The notes under the pieces were generated by a model, which was not told the DNA's origin, searched no databases, and saw nothing but the letters and a program-made list of their open reading frames with translations. A stretch of DNA of 41,339 nucleotides from Eubacterium sp. (GTDB lineage Bacteria > Bacillota > Clostridia > Lachnospirales > Lachnospiraceae): NCBI GenBank assembly GCA_017433295.1, contig JAFRHL010000019.1, forward strand, positions 1 through 41,339. The letters are read 5' to 3'. How positions within the stretch are numbered: the first letter of the stretch is position 1; the number at the start of each line of letters is the position of its first letter. The position numbers and the translations under genes are program-made. Shown one piece after another: positions 335 through 39,487 of the stretch.

Positions 335-1120
335 TTAAGCCTTTTCTTCATCCAGCAGTCTCTGGATGACCTCTTCACAGATCTCCATCTCAGACTTGCC
401 GTCTGTCACGATAACAATATCCGCGGCTGCCTCATATTTCTCCCGGCGTTTTTCCATAAGATTTTGTACAAAATCCACGTTTTTATTATTCTCCAGAAGA
501 GGCCGGCTGTGGTCATCTTTGAGTCTGTCGAGAATGGTTTCCGGTTTTGCGGTCAGCAGAACGACTTTCCCGTTTTTACGCATCTCCACCACGTTTCTTT
601 CCCGAAGGGGAACACCTCCGCCGCAGGAGATCACCACATTGGTCCGGGACTGCATTTCGATAAGCAGGTTGGTCTCCGCGTTCCGAAAATACTCTTCCCC
701 GTAGATCTCAAAGATGTCTGATACGGTCATGCCTTCTCTCTCCGCTATGATCTGGTCCATCTCGATCACCTGCATGGCAAAAGCATCTGACAGCTGGGCG
801 GAAATGGTGGTTTTTCCTGCCCCCATAAAACCGATGAGGACAATATTGTAATCAAAGAGCTTCCTGGCCTGGATCTTCTTGCTGTTCTTTACTACTGCCT
901 TAAAAACGGCCTTGATCTCTTCTGCGTGTTTCTTATCCTTCAGGGATTCCTCCAGCCATTTTTCCTGTTTCTCTTCCTGCTTCGGCTGAAGAATATTGAG
1001 ATGATGCTGTTCCTTGTAGTTCATGATCTGCTCTACAATACGGTTTCTCATAAGCAGGGTATTAAGCAGGATCTCATCTGTCTGGGCCAGGTCGGCACGC
1101 AATAATTCAAGGTCTTCCAT
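335..1120 (-). CDS. aroK: Chorismate mutase-like / shikimate kinase fusion protein
   Basis: This is a bifunctional-looking aromatic amino acid enzyme of 261 residues. Residues 1-85 resemble an AroQ-type chorismate mutase helical domain (start MEDLELLRADLAQTDEILLN). Residues 90-261 are shikimate kinase: Walker A GFMGAGKTT at 97-105, the shikimate-binding Asp in EMDQIIAEREG, the GGGVPL loop, and the lid motif HSRPLLE. The kinase phosphorylates shikimate with ATP; the mutase would convert chorismate to prephenate. The kinase part is complete and well conserved. Mutase activity is less sure because I could not check every catalytic residue. A good site (AAGGAG, 8 bases) precedes the ATG, and a likely promoter lies at 1200-1205. 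Confidence 0.92.
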   Translation of the reverse strand: MEDLELLRADLAQTDEILLNTLLMRNRIVEQIMNYKEQHHLNILQPKQEEKQEKWLEESLKDKKHAEEIKAVFKAVVKNSKKIQARKLFDYNIVLIGFMGAGKTTISAQLSDAFAMQVIEMDQIIAEREGMTVSDIFEIYGEEYFRNAETNLLIEMQSRTNVVISCGGGVPLRERNVVEMRKNGKVVLLTAKPETILDRLKDDHSRPLLENNKNVDFVQNLMEKRREKYEAAADIVIVTDGKSEMEICEEVIQRLLDEEKA

Positions 1121-1199
1121 AGTTCGTCTCCTTTCAGTGGCCGGAAGGATTCCGGCTTCTATGCATCTGCTTGTTTTACACTTTAACGCTTTAAAACAT

Positions 1200-1205
1200 A
1201 GTATA
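1200..1205 (-). promoter_or_regulatory. Extended -10 element upstream of aroK fusion
   Basis: On the minus strand the bases read TGC-TATACT, an extended -10 box about 80 bases before the shikimate kinase ATG. A matching -35 is weak (TGTACA at a 19-base spacing), so the call rests on the extended -10. Confidence 0.4.
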
Positions 1206-1320
1206 GCACATACCGGTTCTTCTTGTACAGAGACGAATCAAATATTTTTCGGAACGCAATCTATCATTTTTTTCGATGATTTAAATCAGTCGAAATCGCT
1301 TTCTGTAGGGCCCGGATCCT

Positions 1321-2493
1321 TTAGAGATTAACTCTCCGTCCCTCCTCATCGGACACATAGGCGGCATACATGATCTTTGTGGTCTCCAGGGCGATATCGA
1401 TACCGGATTCAGGCTTCCTGCCATAAGCCACATCCTCGGCAAAAGCCTGCAGCTCCCCGATATAGCCCCTCAGGGTCTCTTCTGCCACAAACACACTGTT
1501 CCAGCCGGTCTTGCAGCGTAAATTTTCAGAGATATATACGTCTTCCAGTCCATCCTCGTCCATAAAGAAGCTCTTCATATTATCCGGAGGAGTCATGTTG
1601 CAGTTTAATACGCCATCATTGGTGATAATATTGATATGGTTCTGGATTCCTCCCATATAATGCTCGGTGCTTAAGATGACCGCTTTACTTCCGTCGGAGA
1701 AGGTGATGGTGATATGGCCGAAATCCTCCACATCATTAAATTTACTCAAAATGTGCTTTTTGGCCTCTTCGGGGAATCCCTTTACGATCCTTCCTGTATC
1801 TGCCATAACACTTACAGGCCTGATCTCATAACCCCGGACCTCAGATTCCACCTGCTTTAAGTAAAGAACACCGGCGATGGGATGGGAACCCAGCCGCATG
1901 ATGCTTCCTCCGCCAACCAGGTTCCAGTCCTTGGAAAGGGGTGAAGTGGAACCATGCACACTGCATTCCGCATTCATATAGATCACATAGCTCTTTTTCT
2001 TCCTGAGTATCTCTGCGGCCTTGACAATGGCAGGGGAATAAATGTAATTTTCAGCGTACATAAACAGGGTATTGCTTTTTGCAACCTTTTCCCTGCACTC
2101 TTCCAGGTCCTTCAGGATGCTCTCATACATCTTCCTTTTGGGCACTTTATCTCCCACAGGCTTTTCGTCCTCCTCTGTGCCGAAGTATCCGGTGAGGGGC
2201 TTGTCACAGATCACATGCTTGCCTGCCTCCAGGGCTTTATAGGCAAAGGGCAGATGAAGAAGCGGCGGCAGGGCGATGTCAATGATATCAACCTCCGGGT
2301 CGGCAAGGACCTTGTCATAATCTGCGGACGCATACTCATAATTCCATTTCTCTTTTAAGGCATTGGCCCGGGACAGATCATTGTCCACGGCAGCTTTCAG
2401 CCTGATATCTACACCATTCACTTTTATCCATGCATTGGAATGAAAATTCCCCGCAAAACCACAGCCGATGATGGCAACACCTAATACAGCCAT
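1321..2493 (-). CDS. Gfo/Idh/MocA family NAD(P)-dependent oxidoreductase
   Basis: This is a 390-residue cytoplasmic oxidoreductase. The N-terminal Rossmann fold starts VLGVAIIGCGFAGNFHSNAW (dinucleotide motif GxGxxG-like, 10-15), followed by DPEVDIIDIALPPLLHL. The family's EKP motif appears as CDKP at 96-99. The C-terminal half is the usual alpha/beta domain with the GSHPIAG segment. Members oxidise or reduce sugars, inositols and related polyols with NAD(P). Here the substrate cannot be named, and no sugar transporter or kinase lies beside it. A charged stretch of about 30 residues after CDKPLTG (EEDEKPVGDKVPKRK) looks like an insertion. An AGGAGGG site precedes the ATG. The gene is divergent from the nitroreductase. 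Confidence 0.9.
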   Translation of the reverse strand: MAVLGVAIIGCGFAGNFHSNAWIKVNGVDIRLKAAVDNDLSRANALKEKWNYEYASADYDKVLADPEVDIIDIALPPLLHLPFAYKALEAGKHVICDKPLTGYFGTEEDEKPVGDKVPKRKMYESILKDLEECREKVAKSNTLFMYAENYIYSPAIVKAAEILRKKKSYVIYMNAECSVHGSTSPLSKDWNLVGGGSIMRLGSHPIAGVLYLKQVESEVRGYEIRPVSVMADTGRIVKGFPEEAKKHILSKFNDVEDFGHITITFSDGSKAVILSTEHYMGGIQNHINIITNDGVLNCNMTPPDNMKSFFMDEDGLEDVYISENLRCKTGWNSVFVAEETLRGYIGELQAFAEDVAYGRKPESGIDIALETTKIMYAAYVSDEEGRRVNL

Positions 2494-2800
2494 TTTTATC
2501 CCTCCTGTTCATATCTGATTCGTTATTTCGCTGCTGTCGTAAAGACTTTTACTATTTATAAGAATAAAAGCTGATAAGCTCATTGTAAAGAAACAAAGTA
2601 TCGCTTTTCATTATATTTTCAGGGAAAATTTATCAGTTTTATCATTAAACTGTTAAAGGGACTTTATGCTATAGTATGGGTAGAAAAAACAGCTCAAAAG
2701 CCGGGCACATATGCCCCCCTTCCGGCTGCCGCGTGACGAAAAAGACCGGATCAATACAGACACCTGCTGTGATTTATGTTGATAAGAAAGGAGTAATATC
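2494..2800. other. Divergent intergenic region with extended -10 and nested hairpin
   Basis: This 307-base gap separates the oxidoreductase and the nitroreductase. On the plus strand an extended -10 box (TGC-TATAGT, boxed bases 2670-2675) could start the nitroreductase message. Just downstream, at about 2698-2727, AGCCGG pairs with CCGGCT around an inner GGGCA-CATA-TGCCC hairpin, so the leader may be structured. I do not recognise a riboswitch class. No gene is apparent in the gap. Confidence 0.4.
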
Positions 2801-3388
2801 ATGAATTTAAAAGAAGCGATTATGGGAAGAAGATCTGTAAGGAAATATAAGAATATTCCTGTCAGCGAGGAGGACATCCGGGACATCATTGAAGCAGGGC
2901 TCATGGCACCCTCCGCCTCCAATCTTCAGCCCTGGTATTTTGTTGCCGTATCCAGGAGAGACAAACTGGACGAGATCAGAGACACCATGCAGAAGGTGTC
3001 CCAGATCGTCATGCCCTCCCTGGAGGACCGGTTTAAGAACTATCCCAGGATCGTGGCCGAGACCAGACATTTTATCAGTATGCTGGGAGACGCCCCTTTA
3101 TGTGTCCTGGTATTCCTGTATAAAGACGATGAGACGTATCAGAGAAAGGAAACCGAGTTAATGCAGAGTACCGCTGCGGCCATCGAAAACATGCTCCTGA
3201 CCGCATACGATAAAGGCATCGGTTCCTGCTGGATGACCTCCCCTCTGGAATCCGGCCTGGATGCGGCATTGAAGGAAAAATTTGCTCCTGATAAGGGGAA
3301 AATGGTTGCCCTCCTCACCTTCGGTTATCCCGACCAGGAGCCTAAGATGCCCAGAAGGCGTGAGGGCAGATATGAGCTTATAATCTGA
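2801..3388 (+). CDS. Nitroreductase family protein
   Basis: This is a 195-residue FMN-dependent oxidoreductase of the nitroreductase superfamily. The start MNLKEAIMGRRSVRKYKN carries the RRSxRxY phosphate-binding motif for FMN. It is followed by APSASNLQPWYFV, the flavin/substrate loop typical of the family, and later GIGSCWM and LLTFGYP near the C-terminus. Such proteins reduce nitro compounds, quinones or flavins with NAD(P)H as cytoplasmic homodimers; the physiological substrate is unknown. A clear AAAGGAG site sits 7 bases before the ATG. The 3' end overlaps the convergent germinant receptor gene by 11 bases. Confidence 0.92.
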   Translation: MNLKEAIMGRRSVRKYKNIPVSEEDIRDIIEAGLMAPSASNLQPWYFVAVSRRDKLDEIRDTMQKVSQIVMPSLEDRFKNYPRIVAETRHFISMLGDAPLCVLVFLYKDDETYQRKETELMQSTAAAIENMLLTAYDKGIGSCWMTSPLESGLDAALKEKFAPDKGKMVALLTFGYPDQEPKMPRRREGRYELII

Positions 3389-6300
3389 TTTGTCCTTTTA
3401 AGACCGATAAAGAGGACCCCAAAGGGACGGCCTGATATACATGGATCTGCTTCCTGCCGTCATAGTAAGTCCTCAGGATATCCACAGGAGTCCGGCAGAT
3501 CTTACCGGACCATTCCTGCTGGTCGATAAGCTGCCTGACCTGCTGCCCCTCGCAGCCATCCGGAATTCCTTTCATTCCGGTCAGCTCCTTTATACTGCAT
3601 CTGGAGAAACAGACGGTGACATTGGGCGATTTTTGCCAGGCAGCATCCCATTCTTCAAGAAAGCGGATAAGGTCATCCGGTCTGGAAGCCAGACCGGGAC
3701 CGATAAAGATCGTAAAGATATGATTCCACTCGGGACGGCCGCTTTCTGTTCTGACAAGCTGTTTATCCATCTCTTCAATGCTTTGTGCCCGGATCTTCCT
3801 GATCCCGCAGGGAACCAGAGCCTCCTTCTCTTCCATCTTTGACAGCCGGGCCGCTGCAGGATAAAACAGATAGCTGTCTCCCTCCTTATCCACATACAAT
3901 GATAAGATATAGTTTTTCTTTTCCGCGTCAGATTGTTTTCCGCATCCGGTCAGGGTAAGGGGGACCAGCACAAGGAGAAAAAGCAGCAGGCCTGCCGCCG
4001 GCCTTTTCTTTCGGATCCGCCATTTCTCCCTGAAAGCATTCAGAGGCTTATCTCCATCGTGGAAGATGCTTATAAAAAATGGCAGCAACAGGATCAGGGG
4101 AAGGTCGATCCGGCTTTTGTATAAGACGAAGGTCCTGGCCAGAGGAAGAGAATCCGCAGACAGGCAGGCAGTTACGTAAATCAGAAATACAATTCCGGCG
4201 ACGGCCCGGCCCGTCTTTCTTTTTACCATTCCTTCTGCCATCTTCCTGCCGTAATACAGATATCCGGACAATACTCCGATCATGCAGAGGATCCAGTAAA
4301 CTGCCAGCAGGATGTCCAGCCTTTCCAGAAAGCCTCCCGGCAGATGGACCATCTGCATGATTTTTATGACAGACCAGGGGGTGGAGGCGGTCAGTTTTTT
4401 TCCCAGAGTTTTTACTGTCACAAACCAAAGGAGCAGATTACAGATATAACCTCCTGCCACGCCCCGGATGACACAGGAGCGGACAGAGGACCAGGCCATC
4501 CCGGGATCCGGCTCTCCCGGTTCGGGCCGGACAGGCTTACCGTTCCTCTCCGGTTCCGCTTTCTTACCCCTTCCCTTATTATCCTCACTCCCGGAACCCA
4601 GAAAGGGCACCAGGTAGTAAATACATTCCAGGGGCGTGCTGCATAAGAGCAGGTAATAACCGGCCCTAAATCCCGCCAAAGCTGCAGCCCGTAATTCCCT
4701 ATGGCTTCCGGCCGATATCCCCCACAGCCTTTCCGGACTGAATATTTCCTTTAGCTGGGAAAGTCCCTGCATTTTTGTAAATAATCCTGTCATGGTGGTA
4801 ATAATCAGCAGGGCAAATAAAAAAGCCACCCAGGGAAATATCAGTTCCAGAAATCGTCCGTGTTTCTGCAGATCAGTCCCGGCACAATAGACCAGCAGGA
4901 GGGCAAAGGGCAACAGCAGCCACCACAGCTTCTGGTCCGGCATATAGATATTGCGGATGGATAAACCGAAGAAGCCGGACAGGAAGGTAATATTAAGAAA
5001 AAACCGGACCAGATAGACGAGAACAGCCCAGCCGGGCAGGCTGCCGCAGGCACCCTCCCTGCATTCCATCCGCTTTCTTCCCATCCTGAGGAGAAACCAG
5101 GTAAAGAAAAACAGGAAAATCCCATAAAAAAGAAATGCCATCAGTCCTTCCCCCCGGTCTGCCAGGGCAGCCACTGCAGGATAGGAGAGGCCGGCTGCAC
5201 CGAAGCCTTCCACATAGATCAGCCTTGTCAGCTGTCTTCTTGATATCCGGTTCCCGGCCCGGATTCCCGGCCGGGGCAGATGGTATGTCTCCATCCGTCT
5301 TTTCTTTTCATCATTTCTTTGGCGTCCTCTCTCCGTTTCATGGTTTTCGTCGGTTTTTCTCCTGAGTTTTCTGCCCGGCCTGGTAAAATAAGGCCTTGTG
5401 ATCATCCGGGAGAGGGGATAGCGGACATAGTGATCCTTTCTGCTATTGTAATCCAGGTCTCCCCCGCAGACGGAAGGCAGCATATAGGGCACTCCGAAGG
5501 ACTCCAGCTGGGACAGGTGAAAAAGCAGGGCCGCAAAGGTCAGAAGGTATCCATAAATACCCCAGAGGGCTGCGGCAATGATAAAAACAAATTTCAAGAT
5601 CCTGAAAACCGCTCCGAAGGACTCATTGGGAACAATAAAGGAAGCCATGGCGGTAAAGGCCACCACAATCACCACAATGGTGCTGACCAGACCGGCGTCC
5701 ACCGCAGCCTGTCCCACGATAAGTCCGCCCACTATCCCGATGGTACTGCCCAGCTGGCCCGGAATATGGATCCCGGCCTCCTTTAACAGTTCAAACTGAA
5801 ATTCCATCAAAAGGACCTCTGCCACCACGGGGATGGCAATGCCGGTCCGGGCCAGGGCAATGGGCAGGAGGAATTTGGCAGGCAGCATCTCTGTGTGAAA
5901 GGAAGCCACTGCCACATACATGCCCGGAAGGCCTACGGCGAAAAGAGCCGCGGCAAACCGTAACAGCCTTGCCAGGGAGGCCACCGTCATGCGGCTGTAA
6001 TAATCGTCCCCTGCCTGGAAAAACATCTGGTAAGTCACCGGCAGGATCAGGACCCCGGGAGAGTTGTCCACCACCAGCACGATCCGGCCCTCTAAGAGGC
6101 CGCTGGCAGCCTTATCAGGCCGTTCCGTGTGCTGGAACTGGGGAAAGGGGGTCCACTCATTTTTCTCCATCAGCTGCTCCACCATGCTGCCATCCAAAAT
6201 CCCGTCCAGACTGATTTTTTCTACCCGCTTTCTGACCTCTTTGAGAAGCCCCGGCCGGACCAGGTCTTCCATATAGCAGATGGCCAGATCGGTTTTGGAC

Positions 6301-6872
6301 CGTTCCCCCACCATAGTATGCTCCATTTTCAGTCTCGGATCCCGGATCCTCCTGCGGATCAGGGCGGTATTGGTCCGGAAGTTTTCAGTGAAGCTGTCTT
6401 TGGGGCCCCGGATCACCATCTCCTGTTCAGTCTCCCCTACCCCTCTGGTGGGGAAGTCCTTCGTGGAAAGGAGAAGAGCCCTCCTGCAGCCCTCCACCAG
6501 GAGCAGGCTGTTGCCGGAAAGAATCCCTGTAAGAATATCCTCATAAGTCACCGCCTCCGTCCAGTCCACCATCTGGATCAGGTCTGTTTCCACAAAAGAC
6601 AAAAAGTTTTCAGAAGTAGTCTCCCCGGTCAAAAGCTCTCTGTCTTCTGCCTCCATCATGGGACGGATCACAAAATCCTGTACGGTCTGGGAATCGGTCA
6701 TTCCATCTACATAAAGGATAAATGCCTTCCTGTTTCCGCCACCGAAGCAAAATGGATTTTTCACCATGTCACCGCATTTATCCAGGGCTTTTTCAATAAA
6801 TGCTTTATCCTTATCGAAATTTCCCGTCAATTCCCCTGTTATTTTCTGATTTCTGTCATATACTATATCCAT
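3378..6872 (-). CDS. Tripartite germinant receptor: GerA-, GerB- and GerC-type domains in one chain
   Basis: This 1164-residue frame holds what are normally three separate spore germination proteins. Residues about 1-505 are a complete GerAA-type subunit: soluble N-terminal domain, SPGVLILPVT, then membrane helices with PFALARTGIAIPVVAE-type and VPNESFG segments. A highly charged linker (about 500-540) leads to a GerAB-type APC-superfamily transporter domain (about 540-935, start ISRRQLTRLIYVEGFGAAGLSYP). Residues about 960-1164 begin with a hydrophobic stretch and a lipobox LTGC (Cys977) and resemble the N-terminal part of GerAC. GerAC is usually about 370 residues, so roughly its C-terminal half is missing. 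The A, B and C subunits sense small-molecule germinants in the spore inner membrane. Frame, spacing and hydrophobicity continue without a stop. Confidence 0.88.
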   Translation of the reverse strand: MDIVYDRNQKITGELTGNFDKDKAFIEKALDKCGDMVKNPFCFGGGNRKAFILYVDGMTDSQTVQDFVIRPMMEAEDRELLTGETTSENFLSFVETDLIQMVDWTEAVTYEDILTGILSGNSLLLVEGCRRALLLSTKDFPTRGVGETEQEMVIRGPKDSFTENFRTNTALIRRRIRDPRLKMEHTMVGERSKTDLAICYMEDLVRPGLLKEVRKRVEKISLDGILDGSMVEQLMEKNEWTPFPQFQHTERPDKAASGLLEGRIVLVVDNSPGVLILPVTYQMFFQAGDDYYSRMTVASLARLLRFAAALFAVGLPGMYVAVASFHTEMLPAKFLLPIALARTGIAIPVVAEVLLMEFQFELLKEAGIHIPGQLGSTIGIVGGLIVGQAAVDAGLVSTIVVIVVAFTAMASFIVPNESFGAVFRILKFVFIIAAALWGIYGYLLTFAALLFHLSQLESFGVPYMLPSVCGGDLDYNSRKDHYVRYPLSRMITRPYFTRPGRKLRRKTDENHETERGRQRNDEKKRRMETYHLPRPGIRAGNRISRRQLTRLIYVEGFGAAGLSYPAVAALADRGEGLMAFLFYGIFLFFFTWFLLRMGRKRMECREGACGSLPGWAVLVYLVRFFLNITFLSGFFGLSIRNIYMPDQKLWWLLLPFALLLVYCAGTDLQKHGRFLELIFPWVAFLFALLIITTMTGLFTKMQGLSQLKEIFSPERLWGISAGSHRELRAAALAGFRAGYYLLLCSTPLECIYYLVPFLGSGSEDNKGRGKKAEPERNGKPVRPEPGEPDPGMAWSSVRSCVIRGVAGGYICNLLLWFVTVKTLGKKLTASTPWSVIKIMQMVHLPGGFLERLDILLAVYWILCMIGVLSGYLYYGRKMAEGMVKRKTGRAVAGIVFLIYVTACLSADSLPLARTFVLYKSRIDLPLILLLPFFISIFHDGDKPLNAFREKWRIRKKRPAAGLLLFLLVLVPLTLTGCGKQSDAEKKNYILSLYVDKEGDSYLFYPAAARLSKMEEKEALVPCGIRKIRAQSIEEMDKQLVRTESGRPEWNHIFTIFIGPGLASRPDDLIRFLEEWDAAWQKSPNVTVCFSRCSIKELTGMKGIPDGCEGQQVRQLIDQQEWSGKICRTPVDILRTYYDGRKQIHVYQAVPLGSSLSVLKGQIRL

Positions 6873-6961
6873 CTGATTGTCCCTCTACAAAAATACCTGA
6901 TAATTTACAGATCAATACCAGTATTTGATAAAAATTATTTTTTATACCTGCTTTTATCCGC

Positions 6962-8627: not shown

Positions 8628-8650
8628 AAAAAGGGGAGTCCTCCTCCCCT
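8628..8650 (-). terminator. Intrinsic terminator of sipL
   Basis: On the minus strand AGGGGAG pairs with CTCCCCT (7 bp, 5-base loop), followed by TTTTT. The stem overlaps the sipL stop codon and fills the gap to the convergent gntR gene. There is no U-tract for the plus strand. Confidence 0.7.
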
Positions 8651-10220
8651 ATCCGATCAGGCTATCCATTTCCTTTAACAGGAGTAGTTTTCTTCCTGTT
8701 TCCAATGGCTCTGATACATTTTCGTTATATTGTTTTACCTTATCAATGGTGGTACCGAATCTCTTTGCGATCATCCACAGGGTATCTCCGGTCTTAACCA
8801 CGTAGCCGGTCACCGATGGAATATTGGCAATATCCTCTTCCCTTAAGGGGATTTCCTCTGCTTCATCGATCATTTCAAGCTCGTTTAAGGCATATCCCGC
8901 CACATAGATGCCGGCAACGGCCCGGATCTCCATTTCGTTACCGTCCACCACATAGCCGCCGATCTGTTCAAGCACTCCCCGGATCTCACAGCGGACATTA
9001 TCCATGGGGATCTGAGTCTCCACCAGGTATTCAAAGGGGATCACGACTTCCCTTGACTGAACAGGGCTTCCGTCTTCTCCGGCAATGAACAGAATTCTGG
9101 AGAAAATGACTCCCTGGGTATGGATCCCTCCGGATACGACCCTGGATTCTTCGATGCGTATACTGCCTTCGACATTCAGTATCTGCATCAGTCTGCTTTT
9201 TTCCCCCGGAGAAGCTATCCTGTGATTCACCTTGGTCTTGGCATTATTCTGAAATACAAGATTCTCAAAATGCATCTTCTTTGTTTTTAAATTAATATGG
9301 CGGTTATTGGCATACATATCCTTTAATACGGGCTGTTCCAGTTCCCGGCAGGCAAGGATATCCAGCTCCATCACCGCCTCCAACTCCAGGTTCCGGAGCT
9401 CCCCGTCGGAATCCGGTTTTATCACGGTCTGGTGATTCCCCAGGTTAACTGAAATACTGCCGATCAGGTCCTCCCGGCTGTCCGGACATTCCAGTTCATT
9501 ATTGAAAGGAATATCCCAGTCATAATACTGGACAGGGTCCTGGCGGTCTTCGCTTTCATACATCACAAACAAGAAAAGTTCTCCCCGTATGGCAAGCTTA
9601 CCATCCATCATCCTCACATCCACATCCTGAAGCCGCATGGAATTCCAGAGCACATCCCGGATATTTGGTTTCCCGGCCGGAAGACTGATCTCTGCCCGTA
9701 TCCTCTGCACATCTTTCTTGTTCATCACGACTTCAGTTATGGGAAGATTTTCATAAAGGCACTGTACCTTATCAGCATGGTCCACCCCTGTCGTACAGTC
9801 TATAAATTTCATTTCCGAGATCCTGACATGGAAAAAGAGAACTGAGCGCACACCACATTTTCTGGAATTAATGATGGTAACGGAAAGGTCTTCAATATCC
9901 GATGAAACTCTGGCATGATCTGTACTTTTCGCGCCTTCCGCATTCATATATTCTTCAAGGGGAAACTCGTGCTCCATGGTGGATATCCTCTGGTTTTTTT
10001 CATTGCTGATATACAATATTTCCACCAGAAGACAGCCCTTTATCCTAACCCGGTCATCCATCACCTCGACCTCATCTATATGTAGATCCCCCCGGCTTTC
10101 TACTATTTTTTCCATATCCGGCCTGGTATCCGGAACATTCATATCCTCATCCAAAGTGATCTGAACATTTTTTTCGAATTTCAGCATTCCGGAGCGCACC
10201 GGCATTTTCTCAATCTTCAT
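8649..10220 (-). CDS. sipL: SPOCS (DUF3794) repeat protein with C-terminal LysM, SipL-like
   Basis: This is a 523-residue spore morphogenesis protein. Repeated SPOCS/DUF3794 domains fill the first 460 residues (for example TLDEDMNVPDTRPDMEKIV, then VKINHR- and IPFEYLVETQIPMD-type segments). A LysM domain (GYVVKTGDTLWMIAKRFG) occupies about the last 50. This order is that of SipL in Clostridioides difficile, which binds SpoIVA and anchors the coat to the forespore in the mother cell. I use the ATG at 10220 because GGAGG sits 5 bases before it; an in-frame ATG four codons upstream has no ribosome site. A PrcB-like lipoprotein gene lies 74 bases upstream on the same strand. Confidence 0.9.
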   Translation of the reverse strand: MKIEKMPVRSGMLKFEKNVQITLDEDMNVPDTRPDMEKIVESRGDLHIDEVEVMDDRVRIKGCLLVEILYISNEKNQRISTMEHEFPLEEYMNAEGAKSTDHARVSSDIEDLSVTIINSRKCGVRSVLFFHVRISEMKFIDCTTGVDHADKVQCLYENLPITEVVMNKKDVQRIRAEISLPAGKPNIRDVLWNSMRLQDVDVRMMDGKLAIRGELFLFVMYESEDRQDPVQYYDWDIPFNNELECPDSREDLIGSISVNLGNHQTVIKPDSDGELRNLELEAVMELDILACRELEQPVLKDMYANNRHINLKTKKMHFENLVFQNNAKTKVNHRIASPGEKSRLMQILNVEGSIRIEESRVVSGGIHTQGVIFSRILFIAGEDGSPVQSREVVIPFEYLVETQIPMDNVRCEIRGVLEQIGGYVVDGNEMEIRAVAGIYVAGYALNELEMIDEAEEIPLREEDIANIPSVTGYVVKTGDTLWMIAKRFGTTIDKVKQYNENVSEPLETGRKLLLLKEMDSLIG

Positions 10221-10294
10221 ATCTGCCTCCATCTTTTTTATTTATTTCACTATATAATAATGTATGTGCCTGAAATAAAAATATGCAAAGCATA

Positions 10295-36653: not shown

Positions 36654-37333
36654 ATTGCCACCTCCCATGCATGCCCGTCTTTTATCCGTATCTTCCGCTG
36701 GGCCTGGTCAGCCACCCATTCATCGTGGGTGATGAGTACAATGGTATTTCCCTGTCCATGCAGCTCATGAAAGAGCTGCATGATCTCCTGTCCGGTGGAG
36801 GAATCCAGATTGCCCGTGGGTTCATCCGCCAGTAAAATGGACGGTCCGGAAGCCAGGGCCCTGGCAATGGCGACTCTCTGCTGCTGGCCGCCGGAAAGCT
36901 CCGTAGGCTTATGGTCCGCCCTATTTGCGAGCTTCACCCTTTCAAGGGCCTCCCTCACCCTGGATTTACGTTCCTTTTTCCCCACCAGCTGGTAGATCAG
37001 GGGTAATTCCACATTTTCCCCGGCGGTCAGGTTCCCGATCAGGTTAAAATTCTGAAAGATAAATCCGATCTTCTTATTGCGGATACGGGCCAGCTGTTTT
37101 TCCGAATACTCTTCGATTAGCTGTCCTTCCAGATAATACCTGCCTTCATCCAGTGTATCCAGGCAGCCGATAATATTCATCATGGTGGATTTTCCGCTGC
37201 CGGAGGGCCCGATAATACTGACAAACTCCCCTTTACTGATGGAAAGGCTGGCGTGGTCAAGGGCTCTTACCTCATTGTCTCCGATCCGGTAGATTTTAGA
37301 GACATCCTCAAGGAGGATCATTTTTTCTGACAT
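36650..37333 (-). CDS. ABC transporter ATP-binding protein (MacB/LolD type)
   Basis: This is a 227-residue ATPase with all ABC motifs: Walker [10 protein letters not shown] (42-50), Q-loop [20 protein letters not shown], signature LSGGQQQR (146-153), Walker [14 protein letters not shown] (166-178), and the switch His in LITHD. The sequence matches the LolD/MacB group. GGAGGTGATC lies just before the start, and the start overlaps the adaptor stop (TGATG), so the three genes are translationally coupled. Confidence 0.95.
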
Positions 37334-39360
37334 CAGTGATCACCTCCGCCATTTCCTCCGGGCCCTCCGCTGTTATTTCCGCCACCGGAAGGAGGACCAT
37401 CATTACCGTTTCCGAAATTACCGTCCGGCCTTTCTCCGGGGCCTCCCGGTCCCTGCTGCATCATTAAGTCCCTCATATTCTGGGAATCTTCGTTTGAAAC
37501 AAGTTGATAGTAAACTGTGTCACCTTCCGATAATCCGCTTTTGACCTCCACATTTGTACCGTCAGAAAGCCCTGTCTCAATCTCGGTCCGGCCGGACAGG
37601 CTCCCGTCCTTATCCCGGCTGGTATAGACGAACTGTTTTTCTCCCTGCTCCTGAACTGCCGCAACCGGTATCAGCAGCGCATTTTCAGCACTGTCAGTAA
37701 CAATTACCACTGAAGCACTCATTCCGTCCATCATATTATCATCTCTGGGCACTGTAATCTCCACATCATATTTTGTGTTACCGTTACTTGCGGTGGCTGT
37801 AGAGGAGATTTTTGAAATAGTTCCTTCAAAAACCTGATCCTCCAGTGCATCCAGAGTCACTTTGGCCGTTTGTCCCTTCTCAATGGATAATATATCCAGC
37901 TCATCGATGCTCACCGTAACGGATACATTTTGCATGGTATTGATAGAAAATGCAGCCCCTTTATAAGTTCCGTAGAATTCTGTCGTGCCCTGACTTGAAT
38001 CTGAAGAAGAACCTGAGGAGGAAGCGGAAGAAGACATACCTCCCCCGAATCCTGACCCCGGATTTTGTGTACCTTTCCCGTTCTGGTTCGTATTAGTCTG
38101 TCCGTCTGTCTGGGAACTCCCGCTTTGATTGCCGGAAGCAGCGTCTGTATTCGATGAAGTTGATGAATCAGCTGCTCCTGATGAATCAGTAGTGCCTGAC
38201 GAGTTACTGCTGCCTGACGAGTTACTGCTGCCTGACGAATTGGCGCCGGCTGTTGAATCAGTACCGCCTGACGAATTGCTGCTGTCTGATGAAATGTTGC
38301 TATCTGACGAATTGCTGCTGCCTGACGAATTGGCGCCGGCTGTTGAATCGGTACTGACTGAGGGATCGGTACCGACCGATGGATCGCTGCCGCCTGATTG
38401 GTTACTGCCGCCTGAGGACGAGGCTCCCGTGTCTCCATTACCTTCATCTGCAACAGTCTTATCAGTATCTTTATCTTTCTCTGTTTCCGGAGCATTTGCA
38501 TCGGAGGGAGCCGAATTGCCATTATCCGCTGCGGACATTGACATCAGGGTTGCCGTGGGCCTTGAGCCGGAACTGGACATCAAGGTGGTTGCGGACGTTC
38601 CGCCAGAAACCGACATCAGAGTCGCCATGGACCTGGTGCCAGAAATTGATGTGTTCACAGCAGAAACTGAGGACGACCCGGAAGCGGTACTTCCTGAATT
38701 CGAACCCGATCCTGAAGAACCCGACCCGGAAGAATCGGAATCTGTCTGGTCAGTATCAGAAGAGCTGCCTGAGCTGGTCTGGGTATTGCTGGTCTCACTT
38801 CCTTCAGAGACATAGACTGCGGTAATGATTCCATCAGCGGTTGCCTTGATCACAGGGTTTTTATACAGCTTTTCAAGGGCAGTGATCCTCTTTTTGGCAT
38901 CCTGGATCTCCCCATTGATCTTCTCGATTTCCAGGTCTGAAAGATCATCGTCATCCAACTGGTCTTCCAGATCCTCTTTCGTCTCTTTTGCCTCAATTAA
39001 CTCACTTACCACAGATGTTTTATCTAATCTGGCAAGAATATCTCCCTTCTTTACCTCATCTCCCTTTTCCACCTGGACACTGCTGACCAGGACTCCTGTG
39101 GATACTACCACATCTGTTACATCATCCATGGAAATGTTACCGGTGGCAGAAACCGTGCTGTCAATGCTGCCGGTGCTGACCTCATAGGATTGAGCCAGGG
39201 TATCTGAGGCTTTCTTTTTGGAAGAGAAAACACTTCTGGCAAAAAGGCCTGCCAGACAAATGATGGCAGCCAGAAGTGCCCCTGCCGCCATGAGCTTTCT
39301 CTTTTTTATTTTTCCGGTTCTCCCGGAAATACCTTCCCTGAATTTTTTTAACTGTCCCAT
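37333..39360 (-). CDS. HlyD/MacA-type adaptor with a large Ser/Gly-rich insert
   Basis: This is the 675-residue adaptor of the export system. It has one N-terminal helix, then the first lipoyl half (SVQVEKGDEVKKGDILARLD), a short alpha-hairpin coiled coil (about 115-170), and the start of the second lipoyl half (ATADGIITAVYVSEGSET). About 270 residues of Ser/Gly/Thr/Asp-rich sequence then interrupt the domain before the second half resumes (FSINTMQNVSVTVSIDELD). A beta-barrel and a Gly/Pro-rich tail end the protein. The insert contains three copies of a short ATLMS-type motif and a DNA tandem repeat. I start at 39360, with AGGAGG 5 bases upstream. Confidence 0.88.
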   Translation of the reverse strand: MGQLKKFREGISGRTGKIKKRKLMAAGALLAAIICLAGLFARSVFSSKKKASDTLAQSYEVSTGSIDSTVSATGNISMDDVTDVVVSTGVLVSSVQVEKGDEVKKGDILARLDKTSVVSELIEAKETKEDLEDQLDDDDLSDLEIEKINGEIQDAKKRITALEKLYKNPVIKATADGIITAVYVSEGSETSNTQTSSGSSSDTDQTDSDSSGSGSSGSGSNSGSTASGSSSVSAVNTSISGTRSMATLMSVSGGTSATTLMSSSGSRPTATLMSMSAADNGNSAPSDANAPETEKDKDTDKTVADEGNGDTGASSSGGSNQSGGSDPSVGTDPSVSTDSTAGANSSGSSNSSDSNISSDSSNSSGGTDSTAGANSSGSSNSSGSSNSSGTTDSSGAADSSTSSNTDAASGNQSGSSQTDGQTNTNQNGKGTQNPGSGFGGGMSSSASSSGSSSDSSQGTTEFYGTYKGAAFSINTMQNVSVTVSIDELDILSIEKGQTAKVTLDALEDQVFEGTISKISSTATASNGNTKYDVEITVPRDDNMMDGMSASVVIVTDSAENALLIPVAAVQEQGEKQFVYTSRDKDGSLSGRTEIETGLSDGTNVEVKSGLSEGDTVYYQLVSNEDSQNMRDLMMQQGPGGPGERPDGNFGNGNDGPPSGGGNNSGGPGGNGGGDH
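38226..38349 (-). repeat. Direct repeat within the adaptor insert
   Basis: A 34-base segment occurs at 38226-38259 and again at 38316-38349, 90 bases (30 codons) apart. Both copies encode TDSTAGANSSGSS. Flanking related copies make this part of a degenerate minisatellite-like block. Confidence 0.75.
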
Positions 39361-39487
39361 AGTTTCCTCCTGTCCATACTTCTTGTAATACATTTGCCAA
39401 AACTCTTCAAACCATACAGCAACGTGGATTTTTAATAAATATGAACCAGATTAAGGAAATAATGTGAACAATTTATGAATATTTATT

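Follow-up and report, generated by a model that had tools for sequence, protein, structure and literature searches.

A GerA-type germinant receptor chain with A, B and C domains in one open frame, and recurrent GerAB-GerAC fusion with a retained internal lipobox in Lachnospiraceae

Introduction

GerA-type germinant receptors such as GerA of B. subtilis and GerI of B. cereus consist of A, B and C subunits, usually encoded by three genes in that order, with a lipobox leading C. PMC13170314 presents a model of the receptor as an oligomeric, nutrient-gated ion channel built from five or six A-B-C units, with a stoichiometry that rests on models, and places the A-B and B-C ends of three-gene receptors on the cytoplasmic side and C outside; PMC8617281 gives the function of the C subunit as unknown. 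Here we analyze a stretch of 41,339 nucleotides (contig JAFRHL010000019.1, the whole of which we call the window) in which the same three domains follow one another in the same order, again with a lipobox-led C, but in a single open frame and with a C part that lacks the domain PF05504. The genus of the window and of its same-genus relatives is taken as Anaerobutyricum (Lachnospiraceae), which includes A. hallii DSM 3353 and Candidatus Anaerobutyricum avicola.

The frame joins A to B and B to C, and our firmer finding concerns the second joint: B-C fusion with a retained internal lipobox recurs across the family. Related chains include that of A. hallii DSM 3353 (L076) and, like the window, mostly carry the internal lipobox; unlike the window, they leave A separate, some have a full-length C (such as L110 and L111) or no lipobox (L118). 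In a literature search judged by titles and abstract openings, with most subscription journals outside its reach, we found no publication on single-frame GerAB-GerAC or A-B-C chains.

Results

The A, B and C domains lie in one open frame

The frame and its parts are laid out as follows.

3378..6872, minus strand: single open frame, GerA-type receptor A-B-C chain, 1164 codons (Pfam and iterated profiles)
5391..6797, minus strand: A part, GerA domain (residues 26-494; Pfam), its N-terminal half matching solved chains 6o59_A and 9prb_A
4074..5252, minus strand: B part, GerAB-type permease (residues 541-933; profiles), with about ten membrane segments by hydropathy
3381..3944, minus strand: C part (residues 977-1164; Pfam and alignment), consisting of the GerAC N-terminal domain alone

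The frame starts with ATG and encodes 1164 amino acids without an internal stop, and we confirm it as an A-B-C frame. Pfam identifies the A subunit domain (GerA, PF03323) at residues 26-494 with 567 bits (cut-off 27), a divergent B domain (Spore_permease, PF03845) whose best stretch is residues 801-906 with 43.5 bits (cut-off 23.4) and, after the lipobox, Spore_GerAC_N (PF25198) at residues 982-1137 with 35.9 bits (cut-off 27). In iterated profiles the matches span about 17-505 for A, 541-933 for B and 962-1148 for C; from Cys977 onward the C part comprises 188 residues. Because of these family scores, and because most of the A part is 72-77% identical in 11 same-genus matches (68% over residues 1-759 in a twelfth, G008), chance is excluded. 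An earlier sequence-only reading of this DNA had proposed, without giving a strand, both the A-B-C order in one frame and an internal lipobox at Cys977 leading a GerAC-like segment, and both are borne out; the lipobox reads LTGC. The C-terminal Spore_GerAC domain, PF05504, has no Pfam match in the chain or in the window's genome (91% complete); since a short C is shared by 42 of 76 related loci, this domain is not taken as defining a GerA-type receptor, and neither is a three-cistron layout, which is usual. The NCBIfam labels GerXA (311.1 bits, curated cut-off 850), 2A0309 (34.9, cut-off 139.55) and Ger(x)C (20.5, cut-off 163.25) score far below their cut-offs and are not applicable to the chain.

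Among solved structures, a sequence search relates the N-terminal half of the A part to a germination protein (6o59_A) and to GerIA (9prb_A) and returns no match for the B part. A profile built from 13 C parts retrieved a single, unrelated row (E = 0.77), and the sequence searches turned up no solved GerAC chain; NSA2 ribosome-biogenesis chains, which had appeared as a C-part match (best E = 0.0001), are absent from this profile search and were rejected as chance. Two cysteines of the C part, Cys1022 and Cys1126 (numbered C46 and C150 in the top row of the alignment), are invariant in 13 aligned genus sequences, and a disulfide between them is possible given the predicted topology, which would put both outside.

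The window's genome holds one GerA-family match and two spoVAC/AEB-type matches. Most likely the chain is the sole nutrient germinant receptor of the GerA family found in that genome, encoded as a polyprotein.

B-C fusion and a short C part recur among relatives

The genus is represented by 24 genomes, 14 with a match including the window's own. In 12 of the 13 matching relatives B and C lie in one frame, and in G005 a stop separates them. The family search covered 397 genomes, 255 of them with a match, and we retrieved and examined the loci of the best 80 hits to the window protein outside the genus, which extend down to E = 1.5e-111, with distant receptors (E about 1e-60) lying outside the counted sample; five loci from other families were picked by hand for comparison. 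Counts refer to stop-to-stop frames in draft genomes, with A, B and C placed by iterated profiles; the loci were chosen by closeness to the window protein, in practice to its A part, and several genera enter through two species. Four family loci with no visible B-C joint (L101, L051, L126, L142) are omitted from the B-C counts, and the distant A paralogue of G161 (L120) was dropped.

B and C share one frame in 52 of 94 loci: 12 of 13 in the genus set scored here, which includes the window, 39 of 76 scorable Lachnospiraceae loci outside the genus, where the remaining 37 have two frames, and one of five in other families. The search for the same fusion in relatives that the sequence-only reading called for was thus answered positively for its B-C half. 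That reading had also regarded the C part as cut short. It is short, PF05504 being absent, but this is no peculiarity of the window: the tail behind the C N-terminal domain measures 1-35 residues in 42 of the 76 family loci and 133-221 residues in 34, and the short form occurs in all 13 genus loci. C comes in two common forms, of which the short is one, regardless of fusion; two split receptors, G005/L069 and G039/L048 (C frames of 242 and 207 codons), have the short form too and, unlike the window, encode A, B and C in three frames. Within the genus, the B and C parts are 36-51% identical to those of the window.

On a quick IQ-TREE tree of 97 A parts, the fused or separate state of B and C requires 24 changes, 18 of these being forced by supported (starred) branches, with the provisos that the A tree cannot separate fusion from fission, that transfer of the locus would inflate the count and that drafts may contain single errors. 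Shuffled labels require 31 changes on average and none of 500 shuffles was as low for the fused group; fusion state is therefore partly inherited. The nearest row to the window on this tree is L069, with B and C separate (support 99).

The lipobox is kept after fusion

The start of the C part carries two features.

3945..3995, minus strand: hydrophobic segment (residues 960-976) with a basic lead-in, a lipoprotein-type signal read as the eleventh transmembrane helix (hydropathy)
3942..3944, minus strand: lipobox Cys977, invariant in 14 aligned genus rows (alignment and lipobox rule)

The Cys977 column is invariant in 14 of 14 genus rows, and the segment around it is otherwise variable. We scored a lipobox as a Cys preceded by G, A or S with a hydrophobic stretch ahead, a rule fixed after viewing rows that had been missed earlier. 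By this rule 46 of 52 fused C parts have the Cys, as do 39 of 42 separate ones (p = 0.73); the background at comparable B-part places is 25 Cys in 1398. Within the family alone the counts are 33 of 39 fused and 34 of 37 separate. A stricter pattern, too strict at position -2 and since superseded, gave 28 of 39 and 31 of 37 there. On the A tree, lipobox presence requires six changes, and in 18 independent pairs differing in fusion it is the same in 15.4 on average, with no direction favored (median p 1).

The start sites of C behave differently. In Cys-bearing C parts, a Shine-Dalgarno-like start 12-45 codons before the Cys is found in 33 of 39 separate loci versus eight of 46 fused ones (p = 3e-10). 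Some ATG, GTG or TTG does occur in this interval in 39 of the 46, and in the window and six others there is none at all. Because such start sites are rare after fusion, C is apparently made within the longer chain in most fused loci, including the window, and it appears that selection nevertheless keeps the lipid-anchor site in most of them. The genes for both processing enzymes, lgt and lspA, are present in the window's genome.

By hydropathy, B has about ten segments and one more precedes C. With the membrane loops set by hand from hydropathy, basic residues make up 43 of 141 positions in inside loops, 12 of 92 in short outside loops, 27 of 187 in the C part and eight of 19 at the B-C joint. 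Hydropathy and charge together place both joints in the cytoplasm, as we infer, and C outside. Fused and three-gene forms would then have their joints on the same side, and the topology could stay as it is upon fusion. The calculated mass of the whole chain is 131 kDa, and a split at the lipobox would give 110 and 21 kDa.

The A-B joint

Four features mark the joint between A and B.

5253..5345, minus strand: A-B joint, a charged linker (about residues 510-540), with a stop codon of A hereabouts in parsed relatives
5326..5334, minus strand: ribosome-binding-like GGAGAGAGG within the joint, read from the sequence
5309..5314, minus strand: ATGATG 3' of the ribosome-binding-like site, with the B part in another frame, read from the sequence
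5292..5294, minus strand: Met527, the sole in-frame ATG, GTG or TTG among the 30 codons that lead up to the B profile match, with no Shine-Dalgarno-like word upstream

A and B share a frame in one of the 96 loci where both were seen, namely the window. The sequence-only reading had asked whether relatives carry the same fusion and allowed that a fused copy confined to this assembly would speak against it; in the loci searched the window does stand alone for A-B, and B-C, fused in about half of the family loci, does not share this isolation. A lies apart from B-C in all 12 genus relatives that have both on one contig. Where the end of the A gene can be parsed (8 of these 12), it falls 5-19 codons past a conserved GR motif, and the window continues open there. 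A Shine-Dalgarno-like word precedes the B start in 77 of the 95 other B parts and is absent in 18, as it is before Met527. Four candidates for further A-B fusions with long open frames and a stop-free match (G235, G366, G322, G385) were rejected for a stop directly after A, and no other stop-free A-B match was found among the matches listed in broad searches. The joint looks like a former gene boundary recently merged into one frame, and from this one assembly we judge the A-B fusion likely to be a real event.

Promoter-like element

One element lies upstream of the receptor gene.

6919..6947, minus strand: promoter-like element GTATA-N17-AATACTG, a form found in 9 of 12 genus loci including the window

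The general form GHATR-N17-NATAHTR, a pattern chosen after viewing the sequences, occurs upstream in nine of the 12 genus loci, the window among them, versus 0.9% of shuffled upstream stretches; a stricter form occurs once in the window where 0.04 are expected. Its form resembles the forespore sigma-G consensus, a possible pointer to the forespore expression expected of a GerA-type receptor, whose place is the spore inner membrane.

Other observations in the window and among relatives

In one draft assembly (G222, locus L107), a minus-strand frame of about 820 codons at 1080-3536 combines GerAB, the GerAC N-terminal domain and Spore_II_R (SpoIIR). This is the sole PF09551 match in that genome, and by eye the SpoIIR part has no hydrophobic segment of its own before it; a forespore signaling protein fused to a receptor would be very odd. 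Judging by coordinates, G008, G209 and G230 have spoIIR close to their ger loci.

In the window, the last 11 bases of the receptor frame (3378-3388) are shared with a nitroreductase gene that runs convergently on the plus strand (2801-3388). Three further frames lie on the minus strand: 335-1120, which carries both a chorismate mutase type II domain and a shikimate kinase domain; 8649-10232, a spore-type protein with SipL/SPOCS and LysM domains close to the receptor; and 37333-39393, an HlyD-like membrane fusion protein whose gene contains an array of 18-base-period repeats (about 38161-38415).

Discussion

The open frame and its domains, the recurrent B-C fusion, the conserved Cys, the rarity of C starts after fusion and the presence of lgt and lspA lead us to an explanation that we hold slightly more likely than not. 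A would run from the cytoplasmic side into B, a LeuT-like permease of ten helices; B would in turn pass, on the cytoplasmic side too, into what was once the lipoprotein signal of C, now an eleventh helix carrying C across the membrane. Lgt would most likely still lipidate the retained lipobox and LspA would often cut there, which would yield an A-B chain of 110 kDa and a short C lipoprotein of 21 kDa, and these would assemble 1:1:1 into an oligomeric ligand-gated channel, as proposed for other receptors. A bolder reading, which we regard as possible rather than probable, is that of a complete A-B-C polyprotein in which Lgt and LspA recognize a lipoprotein signal placed after ten helices, so that lipidation itself splits the chain; this arrangement would have arisen repeatedly for B and C in Lachnospiraceae, with fusion to A as its extreme form.

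Several observations weigh against the favored explanation. Cutting of the chain is not needed everywhere, given that six of 52 fused chains have no lipobox Cys, four of them (L104, L118, L158, L170) in one clade; three of 42 separate C parts lack the Cys likewise. In the eight of 46 fused loci with a Shine-Dalgarno-like start C may still be started by itself. At the other joint, none of the 95 other scored loci has an open A-B frame, the window's joint contains a well-formed ribosome-binding-like site with its ATGATG out of frame, and the open A-B frame is possibly the mistake of a single assembly.

The alternative that survives best is that the chain stays uncut, its former signal serving as a permanent eleventh helix that tethers C and its lipobox being merely lipidated or a relic. 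We place it short of probable, although well within reach. It would accommodate the six Cys-less chains, five of which have a hydrophobic stretch no more than 30 residues before the C domain, maybe this helix or the last one of B; the clade of four seems to have given up the lipid anchor. What it leaves unexplained is the retention of the Cys in fused chains at about the frequency of separate C parts, and as an invariant column of an otherwise variable segment. The sequence-only reading had doubted that a lipobox could be processed behind a membrane domain unless the chain was cut; the conservation of its Cys fits a cut chain and makes the lipobox look like more than a dead relic.

The A-B fusion could instead be an assembly error or a very rare strain state, with the species carrying A and B-C genes as its relatives do. 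The isolation of the window among the loci searched, the separate A of its genus relatives, their A stops near where the window stays open and the out-of-frame start signals in the joint all point this way. By our own reading, however, restoring an ordinary A end together with an ordinary B start takes more than one wrong base within about 100 bases, the remainder of the chain is open, and the in-frame B start has no Shine-Dalgarno-like word, as in the minority of other B parts and unlike the majority. We consider such an error unlikely without being negligible, and the B-C fusion and its retained lipobox would be unaffected by it. A third account, in which B is still started separately, at Met527 or by reinitiation, so that A-B-C and B-C chains exist side by side, draws on the in-frame ATG within the joint and the strong ribosome-binding-like site upstream; that site serves the out-of-frame ATGATG, however, and Met527 has none of its own, which makes this account quite improbable. 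Finally, we considered and rejected as highly improbable a decaying receptor, fused by neutral accident in a bacterium that sporulates weakly: B and C diverge fast within the genus, an in-frame stop divides the A gene of G006 (L037) into 508 + 74 codons and 10 of 24 genus genomes have no match, but the window's entire frame is open, its genus-invariant residues and promoter-like element are retained and spoVA, spoIIR and SipL-type spore genes are present.

A parallel for the proposed splitting is the cytochrome b/c1 polyprotein FbcH of Bradyrhizobium, in which a membrane protein is followed by an internal signal that signal peptidase cuts; FbcH differs from the window chain in having no lipobox, and the proteins are unrelated.

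Natural B-C and A-B-C chains argue for receptor units of 1:1 and 1:1:1, and show that C can do without a separate gene and often without a C-terminal domain. The repeated fusions with a retained lipobox make LspA processing of a signal behind a polytopic membrane domain testable, in a genus that contains a cultured human gut commensal, A. hallii, open to experiment. If the chain is indeed a polyprotein split at its lipobox, the 1:1:1 stoichiometry of this receptor would be set at translation.

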